DNA of 64,000 nt. Origin: Flammeovirga kamogawensis. Its GTDB lineage: Bacteria; Bacteroidota; Bacteroidia; Cytophagales; Flammeovirgaceae. Positions 49,120 through 59,801 of this stretch are shown here, one piece after another. Made by a program: the position numbers and the translations under genes. Numbering within the stretch: the first letter of the stretch is position 1; each line of letters starts with the position of its first letter. The DNA lies in assembly GCF_018736065.1 (NCBI RefSeq), contig NZ_CP076128.1:1612001-1676000 (forward strand), given 5' to 3'. The notes beneath the pieces are model-generated. The model saw only the letters and a list, made by a program, of their open reading frames with translations. It had not been told where the DNA came from and did no database searches.

Positions 49120-49662
49120 ATGAATTTTTGCAGTAATTGTGGTAACAACAAACTAGAATATATTATTCCTGAGGGTGATCAAAAACATCGATTTGTATGT
49201 AATGAATGTGATACTATTCACTATCAAAACCCTAGAATTATTGCTGGTTGTTTACCTATTTATGATGGGAAAATTCTTTTAGGAAAAAGAGCTATAGAAC
49301 CTAGGTATGGCTACTGGAATTTACCTGCAGGTTTTTTAGAAAATGGTGAAACTCCCAATGATGGCGCTTTGAGAGAATTGTATGAAGAGACTCATGCTAA
49401 AGGTGAAGCTAAACATTTACACACTGTATTTTCTCTTCCTAATTTCAATCAAGTGTATTTGATTTATTACGTAGCTTTATCTTCTGACGAATTTTCTAAG
49501 GTTACTTCTGAAAGTATTGATGTTGAACTTTTTGAAATTGAAGACATTCCTTGGGACTCAATCGCTTTTGAATCGACTACTTTTGCAATAAAAAAGTATA
49601 TAGAAAACCCAACCAATACAACTGCCAATATAGGCCATTTGATAAAAGAAAAATTACATTGA
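49120..49662 (+). CDS. Nudix hydrolase with zinc ribbon
   Basis: A 180-residue pyrophosphohydrolase. An N-terminal zinc ribbon uses Cys4, Cys7, Cys27 and Cys30; the Nudix box lies in GFLENGETPNDGALRELYEETHA cut at about residues 71-93, with the catalytic RELYEE glutamates. This layout is close to the NADH pyrophosphatase NudC-like or ADP-ribose types; the substrate cannot be named. It is monocistronic. Confidence 0.9.
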   Translation: MNFCSNCGNNKLEYIIPEGDQKHRFVCNECDTIHYQNPRIIAGCLPIYDGKILLGKRAIEPRYGYWNLPAGFLENGETPNDGALRELYEETHAKGEAKHLHTVFSLPNFNQVYLIYYVALSSDEFSKVTSESIDVELFEIEDIPWDSIAFESTTFAIKKYIENPTNTTANIGHLIKEKLH

Positions 49663-52888: not shown

Positions 52889-52896
52889 CAAACTTA
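52889..52896 (-). promoter_or_regulatory. TAnnTTTG promoter motif for the carrier operon
   Basis: Minus-strand TAAGTTTG with TTTG 16 bp further upstream (52913-52916), 32 bp from the ATG. Confidence 0.5.
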
Positions 52897-52943
52897 TTGA
52901 ACACATCTATAACAAACTAAAAAAAATCACTTTTATTATAGCG

Positions 52944-52951
52944 TATATTTG
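52944..52951 (+). promoter_or_regulatory. TAnnTTTG promoter motif for the McrBC-like operon
   Basis: TATATTTG on the plus strand, 45 bp upstream of the ATG. Divergent from the carrier promoter within the 139-bp gap. No clear -33 TTG. Confidence 0.5.
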
Positions 52952-52996
52952 ACTATTTTTCATGATGAATTAGTATAAATATACAATTACTAAAAA

Positions 52997-55567
52997 ATGA
53001 AAATTAAAGAATTAGATGAAATTTTTGATGATTATGATAGTTACAAGGCATTAGGAGAAGATAGTTACATAGTTGGTGCTCAGCACCCTCAGAATTTTAA
53101 GCAGCATAAAAAATTTATAATTCCATTATTTTATTTTGATGGCGAAGAATGGTTTAAATTAGACATTAATAAGTTAGGTGAGACTATATTTTTAGCAAGT
53201 GCACCATACACATTAACAACTGATTTTAAATTAGAAGAATTAATTAAAGTTAAAGGTGTACGTCCAAATAAACAATTAACGGATGATGACGCTTACAATA
53301 AAGAAAATTCTTTAACCAAACACATCACTCATGCTGATCGCTTAGGTGTATTATCTGAAGATCAACTATTAGAAATCTTTCCCGGTGAAATTGACCTTGA
53401 ATTACATTTATTTCATCCAGACAAGCACTACTATGACATCATTAACGAAGTCTATGTAGCCCAAGAACGTAAGTTCTTTGCCCAAACTAAAGAAGGACTT
53501 ATTTATGGACCTTTTGTTGGGGTAAAAACGAGTACCGAAGCTAAGACTGTTCGTCTTTCTGCAACAGGTGTTCGTAAAAGTGTTGAGGTATACGAATTAC
53601 CAACAGACGCTTACCTTGAATTTAATATGCCTGAAGAAGGATTAAAGCGAAAGCTTGTTCGTTCTATACAAGATATTGAATACTATATTGTTGATACTGT
53701 TGATTTTATTAGTAGACAAGATCTATTTAAATGGGCAGAAGATCAGTTAAATAAAAAGCAATCTCTAGAAGTTGCTGATAAAGTTTGGAAAGCAATTTCT
53801 AAGGATAGTACAATTACTTCTTTTCATGAACGTTACCAACGTCTTGAAAAACTTTTTGCTAGACCTCAAGAAAATCTTCAATACTTACAACAGTTCGTTA
53901 CTTCTTTGGCAGAAAATGATTTCTTCAAAGCAAGTTTAGATGGATTACAGAACGAGAAACTCGAATTAGACAACTCTATCGCTCAACAAAAGAGAGAAAG
54001 AGATCAAATTAAAAAAGAGACTGCTCGTTCATTAGAAGAAATTCAAGACCTTGAAGATGGCATAAATAATCTCCGTCAAAACGAGCAGAAGATTAGAGAA
54101 AGCCTTCAGAAAGAAAGAGAATCTGCCATCAATAAAGAAATTGAAGAAGGGTTATCCAAGCTTGAAAAAGTACGTGAAGAATTATCTGATAAAGCAGAAG
54201 CTATAGAATTAGCACACACATTTGATAACCTTGCAAGAATCAATGAAGAAATTGATAACGCAAGAAATGTGAAGCATAATTTAGATGTTTCTATTGATGC
54301 TTTAAAAGAAGAATTTATTCAAGTACAAGAAGATGCAGACAAATCTCTGAAGAATTTATTAAAAACAAAGATGCAATTCGATGTTTTTAATTCTGCGTCA
54401 ACTGGGCAAAATAAGCTCCCTCAGCAAACCAATGATTTTGAGTTAAAAGATTACTCTATTGAGAATGAAACACAAATCAATTCTCTAAAAGATCTTTCTC
54501 AAAAAGTACATAAACGCTTAGGAAGGTTAGGACGAAATTACCCAGATCATTTTATTGCAAATGTTTTGATTGCTATGCATCAGAACTCACTTACATTATT
54601 ATGGGGACCTCCAGGTTCTGGTAAAACATCGTTAGGTAGGTTCATGATTCAATCATTAGCAAGAGCAGAACGTTTCTCAGAAATTTCTGTAGCAAGAGGA
54701 TGGTCTTCTCAAAAAGATATTATTGGATTTGCCAACCCATTATCTAAGCGTTTTCAAAGAGCAAATACAGATTTGTATGATCTCTTAAAGCAATTAGACG
54801 GTGAGTTTAAATCTACATCATACCACCAATCTCCTATGTCTTATTGCTTATTGGACGAGGCAAACCTCTCTCCTATTGAGCATTATTGGGCTGCATTCTA
54901 CTCGAATACAGATACCAAAGCACAAATGGATAAAGGCTTAAAGATATCTTTAGGTAATAATGAATTCATTGAATATGCCAACAACTTACGTTTTCTTGGC
55001 ACATTAAATTTGGATTCTACTACAGAGCAGATTTCTCCAAGATTATTAGACAGATCTCATATTGTAAGGTTAGACTTGCCAAAGAGAGATGTTCCTTTAA
55101 TCAGTTCGGAAATCATTATGCCTGAACCTTATGAGATTCCTTTTGATAGTATTCGCGATCTATTTGATCTAAAAGATTTTAAGCAAGAGTTAGCTCCAGA
55201 TCAGCTTGAGTTTATTGATACTGAACTTGAAGAACGATTTGAGCAAATTTCTGTAGAATTAAGAAATCTTGGTATTCAAATTAGTTTAAGAACTAGAAAA
55301 GCAGTTATTGAGTATTGTAATTTAGCACATAGTGCAATGAACGAACAATTCCGTCCATTGGATTACTGCTTAGCACAACGTGTATTTACTCGAATTAACT
55401 TGCAAGGAGCAGAAGCTCGTGAAGGTTTAAAAACGCTACTCGATATTGTCAAAGGGTTTAACCTAAAAGACTCTCATGCAGAGTGGACTTTACAAAAAAT
55501 GCTAGATAGAGGTGCTAAAGAAGGATTTAATCATCATTTCTATAATTACTTCTCAATAGACGGATAA
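52997..55567 (+). CDS. McrB-like AAA+ ATPase/GTPase with long coiled coil
   Basis: Predicted motor of a type IV restriction-like system, 856 residues. Residues 1-300 are an uncharacterised N-terminal region, probably for target recognition. A long coiled coil covers about 305-460. The C-terminal AAA+ domain has Walker A GPPGSGKT (537-544), Walker B LLDEAN (Asp620, Glu621) and a sensor segment GTLNLDSTT (from 668) followed by SPRLLDRS. The N-x-D here replaces the NTAD of E. coli McrB, so GTP specificity is uncertain. The nuclease gene follows two bases after the stop. Confidence 0.85.
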   Translation: MKIKELDEIFDDYDSYKALGEDSYIVGAQHPQNFKQHKKFIIPLFYFDGEEWFKLDINKLGETIFLASAPYTLTTDFKLEELIKVKGVRPNKQLTDDDAYNKENSLTKHITHADRLGVLSEDQLLEIFPGEIDLELHLFHPDKHYYDIINEVYVAQERKFFAQTKEGLIYGPFVGVKTSTEAKTVRLSATGVRKSVEVYELPTDAYLEFNMPEEGLKRKLVRSIQDIEYYIVDTVDFISRQDLFKWAEDQLNKKQSLEVADKVWKAISKDSTITSFHERYQRLEKLFARPQENLQYLQQFVTSLAENDFFKASLDGLQNEKLELDNSIAQQKRERDQIKKETARSLEEIQDLEDGINNLRQNEQKIRESLQKERESAINKEIEEGLSKLEKVREELSDKAEAIELAHTFDNLARINEEIDNARNVKHNLDVSIDALKEEFIQVQEDADKSLKNLLKTKMQFDVFNSASTGQNKLPQQTNDFELKDYSIENETQINSLKDLSQKVHKRLGRLGRNYPDHFIANVLIAMHQNSLTLLWGPPGSGKTSLGRFMIQSLARAERFSEISVARGWSSQKDIIGFANPLSKRFQRANTDLYDLLKQLDGEFKSTSYHQSPMSYCLLDEANLSPIEHYWAAFYSNTDTKAQMDKGLKISLGNNEFIEYANNLRFLGTLNLDSTTEQISPRLLDRSHIVRLDLPKRDVPLISSEIIMPEPYEIPFDSIRDLFDLKDFKQELAPDQLEFIDTELEERFEQISVELRNLGIQISLRTRKAVIEYCNLAHSAMNEQFRPLDYCLAQRVFTRINLQGAEAREGLKTLLDIVKGFNLKDSHAEWTLQKMLDRGAKEGFNHHFYNYFSIDG

Positions 55568-55569
55568 CA

Positions 55570-57276
55570 ATGGAGTTCAAGATTTTTCATATAAGAAAAG
55601 ACAGCTCTCCACCTTACAATACAGAAAGAGAAGAGGTGCTCCCAATCGACGGTTTACACGTTGTTTTGGAGCATCATTTCTATGAGTTAGAATTCCATTA
55701 TTTTGAACTCCCTTTAAATACAAAAGTTACAATAGATGGCGTAGAAGTAGAAAATTCTTTAATTCATAATTCAGAAAGAGATAGTAAAATAACCGTTGGT
55801 TTAGGTCAACACTTTTCTAATCAGTTAGGTGTAGCTACAGTCACATGTGGTGGAGAACCGTTCCAAGTGCGTATTGATGCTTCTAAACTAAGCTCTGAAG
55901 ATGCAGAAGGAATGATTACTTATTTATACAAAAAAAATAAGTCGTTAATTCTAAAGCTATTTACTAGAGAAGAATCTGAAGAAGACAAGAAAAATAAACC
56001 TTCTACTTTATCCATGACCCGTTTAGGGCCTTTGGACAAGTTTATTAATGACATGGAAGATGTTCTTCCTGAGTTAGCACATAGTCCAAGATATTCTACT
56101 GTTCAGAAAAGGGAAATTCAAGATTTTGCTACTGCAGATATTGACAGTCAAAGTATTGATTGGTTAATTGAACACCTTGATGAACTTTATTTTGATGATT
56201 CACTTAAAGATCATCCAGATGCAATAGAAATCAATGGGCAATATACTGTCATAGATCGTATTGAAGCTCCCGTTGTTAAAATGGAGTATGCAACATACGA
56301 AAATGAATGTATTTTAGGGGGATTCTATTGGGCTAGAAAATTGTTAGATGATTTAATCACTCATATTCATTTAATAAACGAGTCTAAAAATTATTTTCAA
56401 GGAGATGGTAATGGTTACGCTACTTTCGAAGCCGCACAGGTTATCATCAATTCTCAGGCTATAGAAGATGTAAATGATATCAAGACAAGATTATATCGTC
56501 TTGAAAGAAAATACATGCAATTGTTTCCGAATACCAAACCCAATGTGCACCCTCCAAGGTTAACAAAACGATTTGGATCGGTTAATTTATATTCTAAGAT
56601 TTTTCTAAGTCTATTACAGGTGTATAACCTAAAAATAGATACCAACGAAAATAGTTCTTCTCTAAAAACATCTTTCTTAGATCAAATTTATGAGCTTTAT
56701 ACCTACTATCAACTCTATGATGCATTGGTAGAGTGCTTTAAAGACTATAATGTAAAGATTGATGAAAGTGCATTAGAAGAAGGTGAATTTATACCGAAAC
56801 GTGTTTCTATCCAACCAGTTAAAGGGCGTTGGCAAATGAATTTTCTTTACCAACCTCAAATTGGAAGAGAACCAACAGATACACACTTGGTGTTACACGG
56901 TAAACCTCATAGAGACAGTTTCTATTATACTCCCGATTTTGTTGTTGAGTATATGGATCCTCATCTTTCTTTACGATACGGTATTTTGGATGCAAAGTAC
57001 AAGATGGCGAAAACGGTCTTAGAACAAGATCTAAAAGAATCTTCGTTTAAATACTATACTTGTGTTCGTGTAATAGGTGAAAGAAGAGATCATCAAAAAC
57101 CAGATTTCCTATGGTTAATTTGCCCTAATGCTTGTTATGGCCGACCAGTATGGACAATGAACTATGATGATAATTTCTTACCAATGATTGGTATTGTTAT
57201 GAACAATGCTGAAAGTAATGATCCTATTAAAAATTGCATCAAAAAGATGATGAGAGAATGGAACGTAGGCGTTTAA
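55570..57276 (+). CDS. McrC-like nuclease (DUF2357 plus PD-(D/E)xK)
   Basis: Predicted effector nuclease of the preceding McrB-like gene, 568 residues. The first 380 residues match the DUF2357 pattern (beta-rich start, then helical region with WLIEHLDELYFDD). The C-terminal third carries a PD-(D/E)xK nuclease: TPDFVVE with Asp456 and ILDAKYK with Asp474 and Lys476, after a typical YQPQIGREP strand. All catalytic residues are intact. Two-base spacing to the upstream gene and a shared terminator (57300-57342) indicate one transcript. Substrate (modified DNA or RNA) cannot be told. Confidence 0.87.
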   Translation: MEFKIFHIRKDSSPPYNTEREEVLPIDGLHVVLEHHFYELEFHYFELPLNTKVTIDGVEVENSLIHNSERDSKITVGLGQHFSNQLGVATVTCGGEPFQVRIDASKLSSEDAEGMITYLYKKNKSLILKLFTREESEEDKKNKPSTLSMTRLGPLDKFINDMEDVLPELAHSPRYSTVQKREIQDFATADIDSQSIDWLIEHLDELYFDDSLKDHPDAIEINGQYTVIDRIEAPVVKMEYATYENECILGGFYWARKLLDDLITHIHLINESKNYFQGDGNGYATFEAAQVIINSQAIEDVNDIKTRLYRLERKYMQLFPNTKPNVHPPRLTKRFGSVNLYSKIFLSLLQVYNLKIDTNENSSSLKTSFLDQIYELYTYYQLYDALVECFKDYNVKIDESALEEGEFIPKRVSIQPVKGRWQMNFLYQPQIGREPTDTHLVLHGKPHRDSFYYTPDFVVEYMDPHLSLRYGILDAKYKMAKTVLEQDLKESSFKYYTCVRVIGERRDHQKPDFLWLICPNACYGRPVWTMNYDDNFLPMIGIVMNNAESNDPIKNCIKKMMREWNVGV

Positions 57277-57299: not shown

Positions 57300-57342
57300 A
57301 AATCATTCATTCAATTGGACTTTCCCTTTGAATGAATGATTT
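57300..57342 (+). terminator. Terminator of the McrBC-like operon
   Basis: Fifteen-base-pair stem (AAATCATTCATTCAA and complement) followed by eight T. Confidence 0.88.
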
Positions 57343-57455: not shown

Positions 57456-59801
57456 ATGACCCATTCTTACTTTACATTACTCAAAAACTCATTCGTAATT
57501 TTCATTTTCTTAATTACGGCATCAGTAGTTTCCGCACAACAATACACACTTACAGATACAGACGTTGTAGTTGATTCATCTGGAACAATAACTTCTATTA
57601 GTTATAACACAACAACAAACACTAACATTGTCATCCCAGACAGATTAGACAATCAAATTGTAAAAAGAATCGGTGATAGGGTATTCAAAAATATAGGGTT
57701 AACTGCCGTTACTTTACCGAATACTTTACAGCGACTTGGATATGGTGCGTTCCAAGATAATTCGTTATCTTCTATTTCAATTCCAGCAAGGGTCACTTAT
57801 ATAGATAGTTATGCTTTTGATGGTAATTCATCACTTGCTTCTTTCAATTTACCTTCTCCAGGGGCTTTATATACATACAACTGGGTGGATGATTCATCAA
57901 CTCCAAATAGTTTCACAAATGGACAAAGCGTTTCTAATTTTACAAAAGCATATAATGCTCAGCCAACTTTTAATGGAGTGAGAGTTTCAGGAGAAGTACG
58001 TGGAGCAGATGCCGTTACATTAACGGTAACTGGTGCTGTTTCACAAACACTAACGCTAAATCGCAATAGTAATTATGAAATAGAAGTAGCTAAAGGAAGT
58101 AGTCTAACTATTAATGCTTCAAAAAGTGGTATTACTTTTCTACCATCAGCAAATTACACGCTTACTAATCTTCAGACCAATTTATACAGACAAGATTTTT
58201 ATATAAAATATACCTTAACCGACAGTGATGTTGTTGTTACAAATAACTCTATCACATCTATCAGTTACGACCTAAAAAACAAAGACATTGTACTACCAAG
58301 TACACTTGATGGCCAAACAGTTAAAGAAATTGCTTTAGGCGTTTTTAGTGGCAAAGATATCAAAACAATTGATTTGCCTACTACTTTAGAAGAGATTGGT
58401 TTAGCTACTTTTATGTATAATGAACTTCTAGAGGTCAATCTACCTAATTCAATCACTAACATTAGTGAAAATGCATTTAGACATAATAAGATAACTTCTT
58501 TCACTTTACCTTCTAGAAGTTCTTCTAACCCATTATATGAATACAAATGGGAAGATAACAGTAATAATTACCATCTAGGAGGAGCAGTAGTAACTGATGT
58601 AGCAACACAATATTATCAACGATTGGTATTTATTGGAGCAAGAATTGAAGGCCAAACAATTGGAGAAGATGCCTCACTTGCCTATAGTATTAATGGAATA
58701 GCTCAAACACCACTTTCAGTAAAATCTCATACTACTTTTAAAATTGAAGTAGCAAAAGGTGATGATGTAGTGATTACTCCTTCAAATAGTACTTGTACAT
58801 TCACCCCATCTAATTACACTTATACTGGAATAACAGCAAGTAAGTCAGATCAAAATTTCACAGCACAACATAGCATTGTTTATACTGATAAATTTAATGT
58901 TACTAATACCAACAAGACAAAGGTTTCTTACGGTGCGTTCGTTCAATTACACGATCTTTCCAAAACAGGTTATGATTTTTATGGTTGGGTAACTAGCCCT
59001 AATTCACTTAGAAAAGATAGAGTTGGTTATAGTGAAGGTGAAACTATTAATTTAACTGCTGTATGGACCCCTATTGACTACACAATTAATTATTATTATG
59101 GTAAAGACAATAATAACAAAGACATTACAAATGTTGTAAACACGAATGTTTTTAGATATACGATTGAAGATCAAATAACATTGGCTAACCCTACAAGAGA
59201 TCAATATGCATTTGATGGATGGTTTAAAGACCCTGCATATACCCAAGCATTTAACGGCACAATTGCTACAGGCACAACGGGGAATTTATCTTTATATGTT
59301 AAATGGAGACATACAGGTCAAACAACACAATATACCATTACTTATAAAGATACTAAAGGTGCTGACAATCCCAACCCTACTACTTACGAAAGTAACACTG
59401 AAGGTTTTAAATTAGAACGACTAGAAAAAGATGGTTTTTATTTTAATGGGTGGAAAAATGGTCCTGGTGAAAACGTTCTGTGGTATACCGAAATTTGGTC
59501 TACTGTAGGTGATATTACCCTATATGCTGATTGGAGTGTTGTTACTTCTATCAACAACCAAAATGAAGTAGATAATGAAATTCTTATCTTCCCTAACCCT
59601 TTCTTGGATGAAATTACCATTGATTTAACACACTACTCAAAAGAAGTAACTATAAGGGTAACCTCAATTGATAATAAATTAATAAAAAATATTAAGGCAT
59701 TTGGAACTGCTAATATTTTGATTGATGGACCCGCTGGAATTTACATTGTTTCGGTTCTTTCAGAAGGAAAAATAAAATCATATAAAGTATCAAAAAGATA
59801 A
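57456..59801 (+). CDS. BspA-type LRR and InlB-repeat surface protein with T9SS tail
   Basis: A 781-residue secreted protein, likely an adhesin. Signal peptide to about residue 27. Residues about 29-215 and 248-420 are two copies of one module: opening YTLTDxDVVV, a BspA-type leucine-rich segment and an Ig-like strand block. Residues about 490-690 hold three to four InlB-like (Listeria-Bacteroides) repeats ending in GW..Y/V.W patterns. The last 75 residues are a type IX sorting domain (IFPNPF ... GIYIVSV ... YKVSKR). It is monocistronic between two terminators. Confidence 0.88.
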   Translation: MTHSYFTLLKNSFVIFIFLITASVVSAQQYTLTDTDVVVDSSGTITSISYNTTTNTNIVIPDRLDNQIVKRIGDRVFKNIGLTAVTLPNTLQRLGYGAFQDNSLSSISIPARVTYIDSYAFDGNSSLASFNLPSPGALYTYNWVDDSSTPNSFTNGQSVSNFTKAYNAQPTFNGVRVSGEVRGADAVTLTVTGAVSQTLTLNRNSNYEIEVAKGSSLTINASKSGITFLPSANYTLTNLQTNLYRQDFYIKYTLTDSDVVVTNNSITSISYDLKNKDIVLPSTLDGQTVKEIALGVFSGKDIKTIDLPTTLEEIGLATFMYNELLEVNLPNSITNISENAFRHNKITSFTLPSRSSSNPLYEYKWEDNSNNYHLGGAVVTDVATQYYQRLVFIGARIEGQTIGEDASLAYSINGIAQTPLSVKSHTTFKIEVAKGDDVVITPSNSTCTFTPSNYTYTGITASKSDQNFTAQHSIVYTDKFNVTNTNKTKVSYGAFVQLHDLSKTGYDFYGWVTSPNSLRKDRVGYSEGETINLTAVWTPIDYTINYYYGKDNNNKDITNVVNTNVFRYTIEDQITLANPTRDQYAFDGWFKDPAYTQAFNGTIATGTTGNLSLYVKWRHTGQTTQYTITYKDTKGADNPNPTTYESNTEGFKLERLEKDGFYFNGWKNGPGENVLWYTEIWSTVGDITLYADWSVVTSINNQNEVDNEILIFPNPFLDEITIDLTHYSKEVTIRVTSIDNKLIKNIKAFGTANILIDGPAGIYIVSVLSEGKIKSYKVSKR

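Follow-up and report, generated by a model that had tools for sequence, protein, structure and literature searches.

Does the gene pair at positions 52997 to 57276 of a 64,000-nucleotide stretch of the Flammeovirga kamogawensis genome (contig NZ_CP076128.1, positions 1,612,001 to 1,676,000; this whole stretch is called the window below) encode a McrBC-like restriction system, and is such a system resident or travelling in its host? As the first-pass annotation of this DNA had stated, the two genes lie two bases apart; their coordinates, frames and ATG starts were verified, and both are on the plus strand. With a probability of roughly 0.7, we regard the two genes as a McrBC-like system, akin to Type IV restriction, that belongs to the NxD branch and is equipped with a coiled coil, and in which the nuclease would be recruited by a nucleotide-driven ring. 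The following features bear on this reading.

52997..55567, plus strand: gene for an 856-residue AAA+ nucleoside triphosphatase, assigned to the NxD McrB branch from open reading frame, motifs and profile comparison
53060..53701, plus strand: N-terminal beta-rich region, about residues 22-235, modelled with low to moderate confidence
53918..54388, plus strand: predicted coiled coil, residues 308-464 (AlphaFold2 model, heptads)
54464..55564, plus strand: AAA+ domain, about residues 490-856 (model, hhalign, Foldseek)
54605..54628, plus strand: Walker A motif GPPGSGKT, residues 537-544
54848..54865, plus strand: Walker B motif LLDEAN, residues 618-623
55007..55015, plus strand: NxD motif N671-L-D673 (motif, alignment)
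55570..57276, plus strand: gene for a 568-residue putative McrC-like PD-(D/E)xK nuclease (open reading frame, conserved residues, fold match)
55570..55881, plus strand: N-terminal all-beta, probably Ig-like domain, residues 1-104 (model strands, weak Foldseek matches)
56932..56937, plus strand: predicted catalytic P455-D456 (alignment)
56989..56997, plus strand: predicted catalytic D474-A-K476 (alignment)

In PMC11090510, a major branch of McrB-like GTPases is recognised by NxD where others have NxxD, and no member of this branch is stated to have been characterised. N-x-D in place of NTAD had been noticed in the window ATPase at first reading, and the motif was recovered as N671-L-D673, along with the AAA+ motifs at residues 537 and 618. 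NxD is shared by all ATPases of the window family and its mobile relatives among the rows of our AAA-domain tree (18/18). When the ATPase family was compared by hhalign with an NxD AAA protein of the same genome, encoded on contig C2 beside a DUF2357 protein, the probability reached 99.8% (E 1.5e-27); against E. coli McrB it was 95%. Since the NxD motif is accompanied by this match to a McrB-like protein of the same genome, the ATPase is read as McrB-type and, judged from sequence, belongs to the NxD branch. Pfam yielded sub-threshold matches only. The PADLOC candidate model PDC-M26A matches the window ATPase with an E-value of 8e-28, the match extending over the coiled coil and the AAA+ domain, and likewise all four plasmid relatives tested, but it matches the C2 protein more strongly, so that the label is a broad one. 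A literature search on PDC-M26 retrieved no paper.

The long coiled coil, first placed at about residues 305-460, was borne out. Residues 308-464 form a single unbroken helix of about 157 residues in the AlphaFold2 model (built from 15 rows), and a heptad signal covers most of residues 305-465; the heptad test is crude, as shorter stretches such as 253-281 and 716-745 also score positive. A long coiled coil joined to the GTPase domain, as predicted here, is a defining trait of coiled-coil nuclease tandems (CoCoNuTs). The N-terminal domain has K108, G171, F173, R218 and K219 invariant in nine Bacteroidota rows and found no sequence match in Pfam or PDB, CSD and YTH domains included. A transmembrane fusion of the CoCoPALM type was set aside, the highest 19-residue hydropathy being 1.06.

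That the second protein is a McrC-like nuclease is supported by its model (mean predicted local distance difference test score, pLDDT, 81). Only two PDB chains matched this model below 0.001, namely 9a5m_A of YdjA-YdiS (E 4.9e-7) and 6ut6_G of the E. coli McrBC complex (E 7.8e-5); they are taken as YdjA and McrC, judged from their lengths. Because P455, D456, D474 and K476 are invariant in all 13 aligned rows, which include four close copies from Flammeovirga, the nuclease site shows no sign of inactivation. The PD-(D/E)xK site reported earlier, with Asp456, Asp474 and Lys476, is thus intact, its catalytic residues and activity being predicted. Foldseek matches of the nuclease model to Ig domains have E-values of 0.17 and above, with a best probability of 0.87. 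For DUF2357, assigned to this gene at first reading, a direct Pfam match was not obtained, and the family was reached only through relatives. At E <= 0.01, DUF2357 was detected in three and PDDEXK_7 in four of the 13 rows of the alignment of nuclease relatives (A8), and two of the four plasmid partner nucleases exceed the DUF2357 cut-off. A DUF2357 search of the host genome retrieved only another protein, on contig C2, and comparison of the nuclease profile with that protein was too weak to use.

Several observations weigh against the McrBC-like reading. Searched with the window nuclease up to E <= 5, Pfam returned neither DUF2357 nor any other family; PADLOC and PDB sequences gave no match, and NCBIfam only one row at chance level. 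The template modelling scores (TM-scores) of its fold matches are low (0.17-0.28), and its likeness to McrBC-type chains, as modelled, is therefore one of fold family rather than a close match; its profile compares so weakly with E. coli McrC (16.6%) that the result is too weak to use. With a pLDDT of 65, the ATPase model has modest quality; in Foldseek it retrieves MCM, dynein and RavA on top, a McrBC chain standing at rank 28. The pair is surrounded by housekeeping genes, among which PADLOC (ten window neighbours) returned one weak candidate match and a generic helix-turn-helix in the Lrp gene. Finally, the plasmid and viral-contig collections from which mobile relatives were drawn hold mostly mobile records, so that the apparent mobility is partly a sampling effect.

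MCM, dynein and RavA are themselves related AAA+ clades, and the McrBC-like assignment of the pair stands on the NxD motif, the hhalign score and the McrBC-type fold of the partner taken together. E. coli McrBC likewise joins an AAA+ protein to a McrC-type nuclease; it differs in having NTAD in place of NxD and no long coiled coil, and its McrC (348 residues) is without an Ig-like domain. The PDB chain that the nuclease model matches best, 9a5m_A, belongs to YdjA-YdiS, which we take to be restriction subunits of Bacillus subtilis BsuM. BsuM is a restriction-modification system with methylases, whereas no methylase adjoins the window pair. Literature searches on YdiS/YdjA gave nothing useful. 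Among PADLOC models, none matches the window nuclease or the four plasmid partners tested.

By analogy with McrBC, the pair could work as follows. The AAA+ protein would assemble into a ring, from which coiled-coil stalks would hold the N-terminal recognition domain at a distance. This domain would bind the target, which may be modified or foreign DNA, or RNA. Target binding would let nucleotide hydrolysis, probably of GTP as in McrB, drive the ring, which would recruit and activate the McrC-like PD-(D/E)xK nuclease for cleavage; the nuclease would in turn stimulate the AAA+ ring. A role in defence has indirect support from the gene context of relatives and from the PADLOC candidate model; like any core role of the pair, it is an inference.

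We wondered whether the pair is a resident or a travelling system. It is present at one chromosomal locus in all nine Flammeovirga genomes sampled. A dcuC homologue adjoins the ATPase gene in each of the eight other genomes, and the Lrp gene follows downstream in six of these (in L018 after about 1 kb), other genes being found there in L016 and L017. Protein identity to the window across the genus amounts to 84-97% for the ATPase and 78-97% for the nuclease. The ratio of nonsynonymous to synonymous substitution rates (dN/dS) of the ATPase gene is 0.03-0.06 in five of six comparisons, several of them near saturation (dS 1.7-3.0) and the sixth saturated; for the nuclease gene it is 0.018, computable against the nearest genome only. 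These sequence comparisons indicate that the pair is under purifying selection in the genus. Over 36 genome pairs, the correlation between its distance matrices and those of four chosen neighbour genes is 0.90-0.99, and the mean protein distances of the pair (0.12 and 0.16) compare with 0.12-0.49 for these neighbours. The pair thus behaves, as far as sequences tell, as vertically inherited in Flammeovirga and resident rather than travelling; such core, vertical inheritance, which the first-pass annotation had not foreseen, is unusual for defence.

The same genome encodes, on contig C2 (L001 721888-725640), another NxD AAA protein, whose partner matches DUF2357. This pair occurs in three of the nine genus genomes, the two other copies having 60-62% identity and one of them an internal stop. 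Since the window pair is found in 9/9 genomes at one locus and the C2 pair in 3/9, the former behaves as core and the latter as accessory.

In the order, the nuclease was found in 11 of 241 genomes: nine belong to Flammeovirga, and two further genera of its family contribute a single genome each. A wider alignment raised this to 12/241, the twelfth being an 85-residue fragment. Searches of the class (with the single nuclease sequence) and of the phylum (with two alignments) returned the own genome only, 1/395 each. The ATPase is present in 11 of 18 family genomes, representing three of eight genera, and absent in seven. A contig scan of named genomes with strict patterns, which returned Bacteroidota only, located nine loci: five in Flammeovirga, two in Dyadobacter and one each in Pontibacter vulgaris and Sphingobacterium tabacisoli. 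Using the ATPase as tblastn query, 293 of 72,556 plasmid records matched, two with coverage of at least 80%; because 42 of 60 matches sampled at even steps are covered under 20%, most of them are so taken to be other AAA proteins. The nuclease matched in two plasmid records. ATPase relatives were also detected on eight IMG/VR contigs, one of which is the same A. baumannii plasmid. A scan of viral contigs with the nuclease alone retrieved no relative, a BFVD search gave no match under 0.001, and megablast of one viral-contig relative against E. coli genomes found nothing.

In all 25 relatives whose downstream side was read, a homologous nuclease gene lies directly after the ATPase gene. Nine of these are Flammeovirga genomes, two come from elsewhere in the family and four from other Bacteroidota; the rest are four plasmids and six viral contigs. 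The nuclease frame of L041 is short (357 residues), and L037, which ends at the ATPase, is outside this count; a single plasmid stretch appears under both L036 and L032, and L038 and L039 share pair and integrase. Co-occurrence of the two genes, which the first-pass annotation had proposed to follow across Bacteroidota, holds in each relative read in this way. Neither of the outcomes named there as contrary, a non-McrB ATPase beside a protein without McrC fold or an unconserved pair, was obtained. In Dyadobacter beijingensis (L030 7078-9599), the ATPase gene is split in two frames and the partner nuclease frame is open.

Gene context of the relatives varies. One lies beside a MvaI/BcnI endonuclease, a cytosine methylase and Vsr, and an N6/N4 methylase is found near the L042 pair. 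Tyrosine integrases occur close to the L038 and L043 pairs and about 3 kb from L028; L029 is accompanied by an AAA_15 ATPase and by a HEPN-like protein below its cut-off. Neighbours of these kinds are absent from some relatives, and in the two other family genera the pair lies among housekeeping-type genes. A literature search on Flammeovirga defence returned no paper mentioning Flammeovirga.

Which kind of McrBC-like pair this is can be approached from CoCoNuTs. That the window encodes a bona fide CoCoNuT, of Type I-C or a close relative, with an RNA target bound through a CSD/YTH-like N-terminal domain, is the alternative that survives best, though we consider it somewhat doubtful. Type I (CnuB and CnuC) as presented in PMC11090510 resembles the window pair in its NxD motif, in a McrB-like domain that carries a coiled coil, in its two genes, and in the PD-(D/E)xK nuclease and probably Ig-like domain of the partner. 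The window pair differs from it in that no DUF2357 was detected, that its N-terminal domain is without match, and that it is core in its genus; CnuB of Type I has a CSD-like and often also a YTH-like N-terminal domain, folds that the searches neither demonstrated nor ruled out for the N-terminal region of the window ATPase, modelled as beta-rich with low to moderate confidence.

To place the window ATPase among such proteins, AAA-domain trees of 29 and 32 rows were constructed, with a very long branch to the E. coli McrB outgroup; reference CoCoNuTs in them are plasmid loci labelled by gene context and not published Type I sequences. In the loci of CoCoNuT context (L058, L059, L061), the order is phosphatase, kinase, helicase, further protein, AAA protein and partner, and AAA_11 and AAA_12 were detected in the helicases of all three tested; L066 served as phospholipase D-associated reference. 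The window family (nine rows) forms one clade with support of 100/99 and 100/100 in the two trees, and together with nine mobile pairs it forms a clade at 100/100 on a long stem. This separate clade speaks against membership in CoCoNuTs, with the restriction that it was set apart from context-labelled references. In favour, a branch with support of 85/86, which is below the star threshold, unites window/mobile rows, CoCoNuT-context rows (plus L065) and insert-type rows apart from methyltransferase-associated ones; yet CoCoNuT-context and insert-type rows also form a group that excludes the window clade, at 77/75. With clades defined after the trees had been seen, approximately unbiased tests left both placements standing: p-AU is 0.369 when the window clade is joined to CoCoNuT-context rows, 0.17 when it is joined to only two of these, and 0.095 when it is joined to methyltransferase-associated rows, none being rejected. 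The nuclease-family profile reaches one of three CoCoNuT-context partners, that of L061 (E 1.4e-5), and matches neither the L058 and L059 partners nor the C2 nuclease.

Type I-A can be judged from the spacing of motifs. Walker B and NxD are separated by 47 residues in the window ATPase and by 86-125 in three insert-type plasmid proteins, and no Type I-A helical insert was found between these motifs in the window. Since the insert is missing, the Type I-A label does not apply on sequence grounds. Two plasmid NxD AAA proteins (L062 and L070) have 125 residues in this interval and partner frames of about 855 residues; their spacing appears as described for Type I-A. For Types II and III, a helicase of the CnuH (UPF1-like) family was sought, and none was found in a Pfam scan of five window neighbours. 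Of the term CoCoNuT-like, then, the word "like" can stay for layout, coiled coil and probable Ig-like domain; strict membership is no more than possible, the clade standing apart from the context-labelled references and having no Type I-A insert.

Tentatively, the McrBC-like pair may represent an unnamed clade of coiled-coil pairs that is mobile elsewhere, on plasmids and integrative elements, and has become fixed core in Flammeovirga, with a conserved regulatory region of its own and an unrecognised sensor domain. It would then serve permanently and genus-wide in standing immunity or nucleic-acid surveillance and would not act as a defence module open to exchange. Our confidence in this extension has been lowered because mobile relatives come from mostly mobile collections.

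Less probable still, and in our view unlikely, is that an ex-defence pair was domesticated for a housekeeping role in the genus, for example in nucleic-acid quality control or repair. Presence in 9/9 genomes, synteny, slow evolution similar to that of neighbours, a conserved 5' block and the housekeeping-type surroundings in two other family genera would fit such a role. However, only 3/8 family genera carry the pair and 7/18 genomes lack it, class and phylum samples yield the own genome only, and long-lasting selection for defence can give conservation as well. A MoxR/RavA-type AAA+ regulator with an unrelated nuclease-like partner, suggested by RavA, MCM and dynein chains outranking McrBC in Foldseek, is very improbable in view of the NxD motif, the hhalign match to a McrB-like protein, the McrBC-type partner fold and the constant pairing.

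Two features flank the McrBC-like pair.

52889..52961, no strand assigned: 5' block conserved in the genus alignment, with dcuC (minus strand) on one side and the ATPase gene on the other
57300..57342, plus strand: AT-rich terminator hairpin (-20.2 kcal/mol, z -3.9) with a T run after it

The 5' block, including TTGACTATTTTTC, is nearly invariant in the eight of nine genus genomes aligned. Over the whole aligned 5' stretch, gene ends included, mean identity is 79% with an almost invariant core, while the 3' side of the pair is poorly conserved (36%). The minus strand has TAAGTTTG, in agreement with the -7 element of Bacteroidota; for this reason the dcuC promoter may take up part of the core, and the block may hold both promoters, that of the pair and that of dcuC. 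The promoter motif previously pointed out did not stand out by count, 22 sigma-70-like sites being observed against 20.3 +/- 4.8 in shuffles. The single terminator was found as expected, although a pattern scan missed it, probably owing to the loop.

Between the nuclease and Lrp genes, 57456-59801 (plus strand) encodes a leucine-rich repeat protein of the BspA type; it carries Listeria-Bacteroides repeats and has a secretion-tail match below cut-off. Since nuclease and Lrp genes are directly adjacent in five genus genomes (L013, L014, L015, L019, L020), this gene looks like a strain-specific insertion. Upstream, the 180-residue product of 49120-49662 (plus strand) weakly matches the PADLOC candidate PDC-S07 (E 7.7e-8).

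Flammeovirga is marine, harmless and culturable. The family itself is already covered by the PADLOC candidate PDC-M26A; its interest here lies in a restriction-like pair turned core and chromosomal in one genus. With no NxD-type McrB characterised according to PMC11090510, a compact two-gene pair present in each of nine sampled genomes is a natural knock-out target, and the accessory NxD pair on C2 provides an internal control. More generally, the pair opens to experiment the question of what follows once a restriction-like system has joined the core genes of its host.

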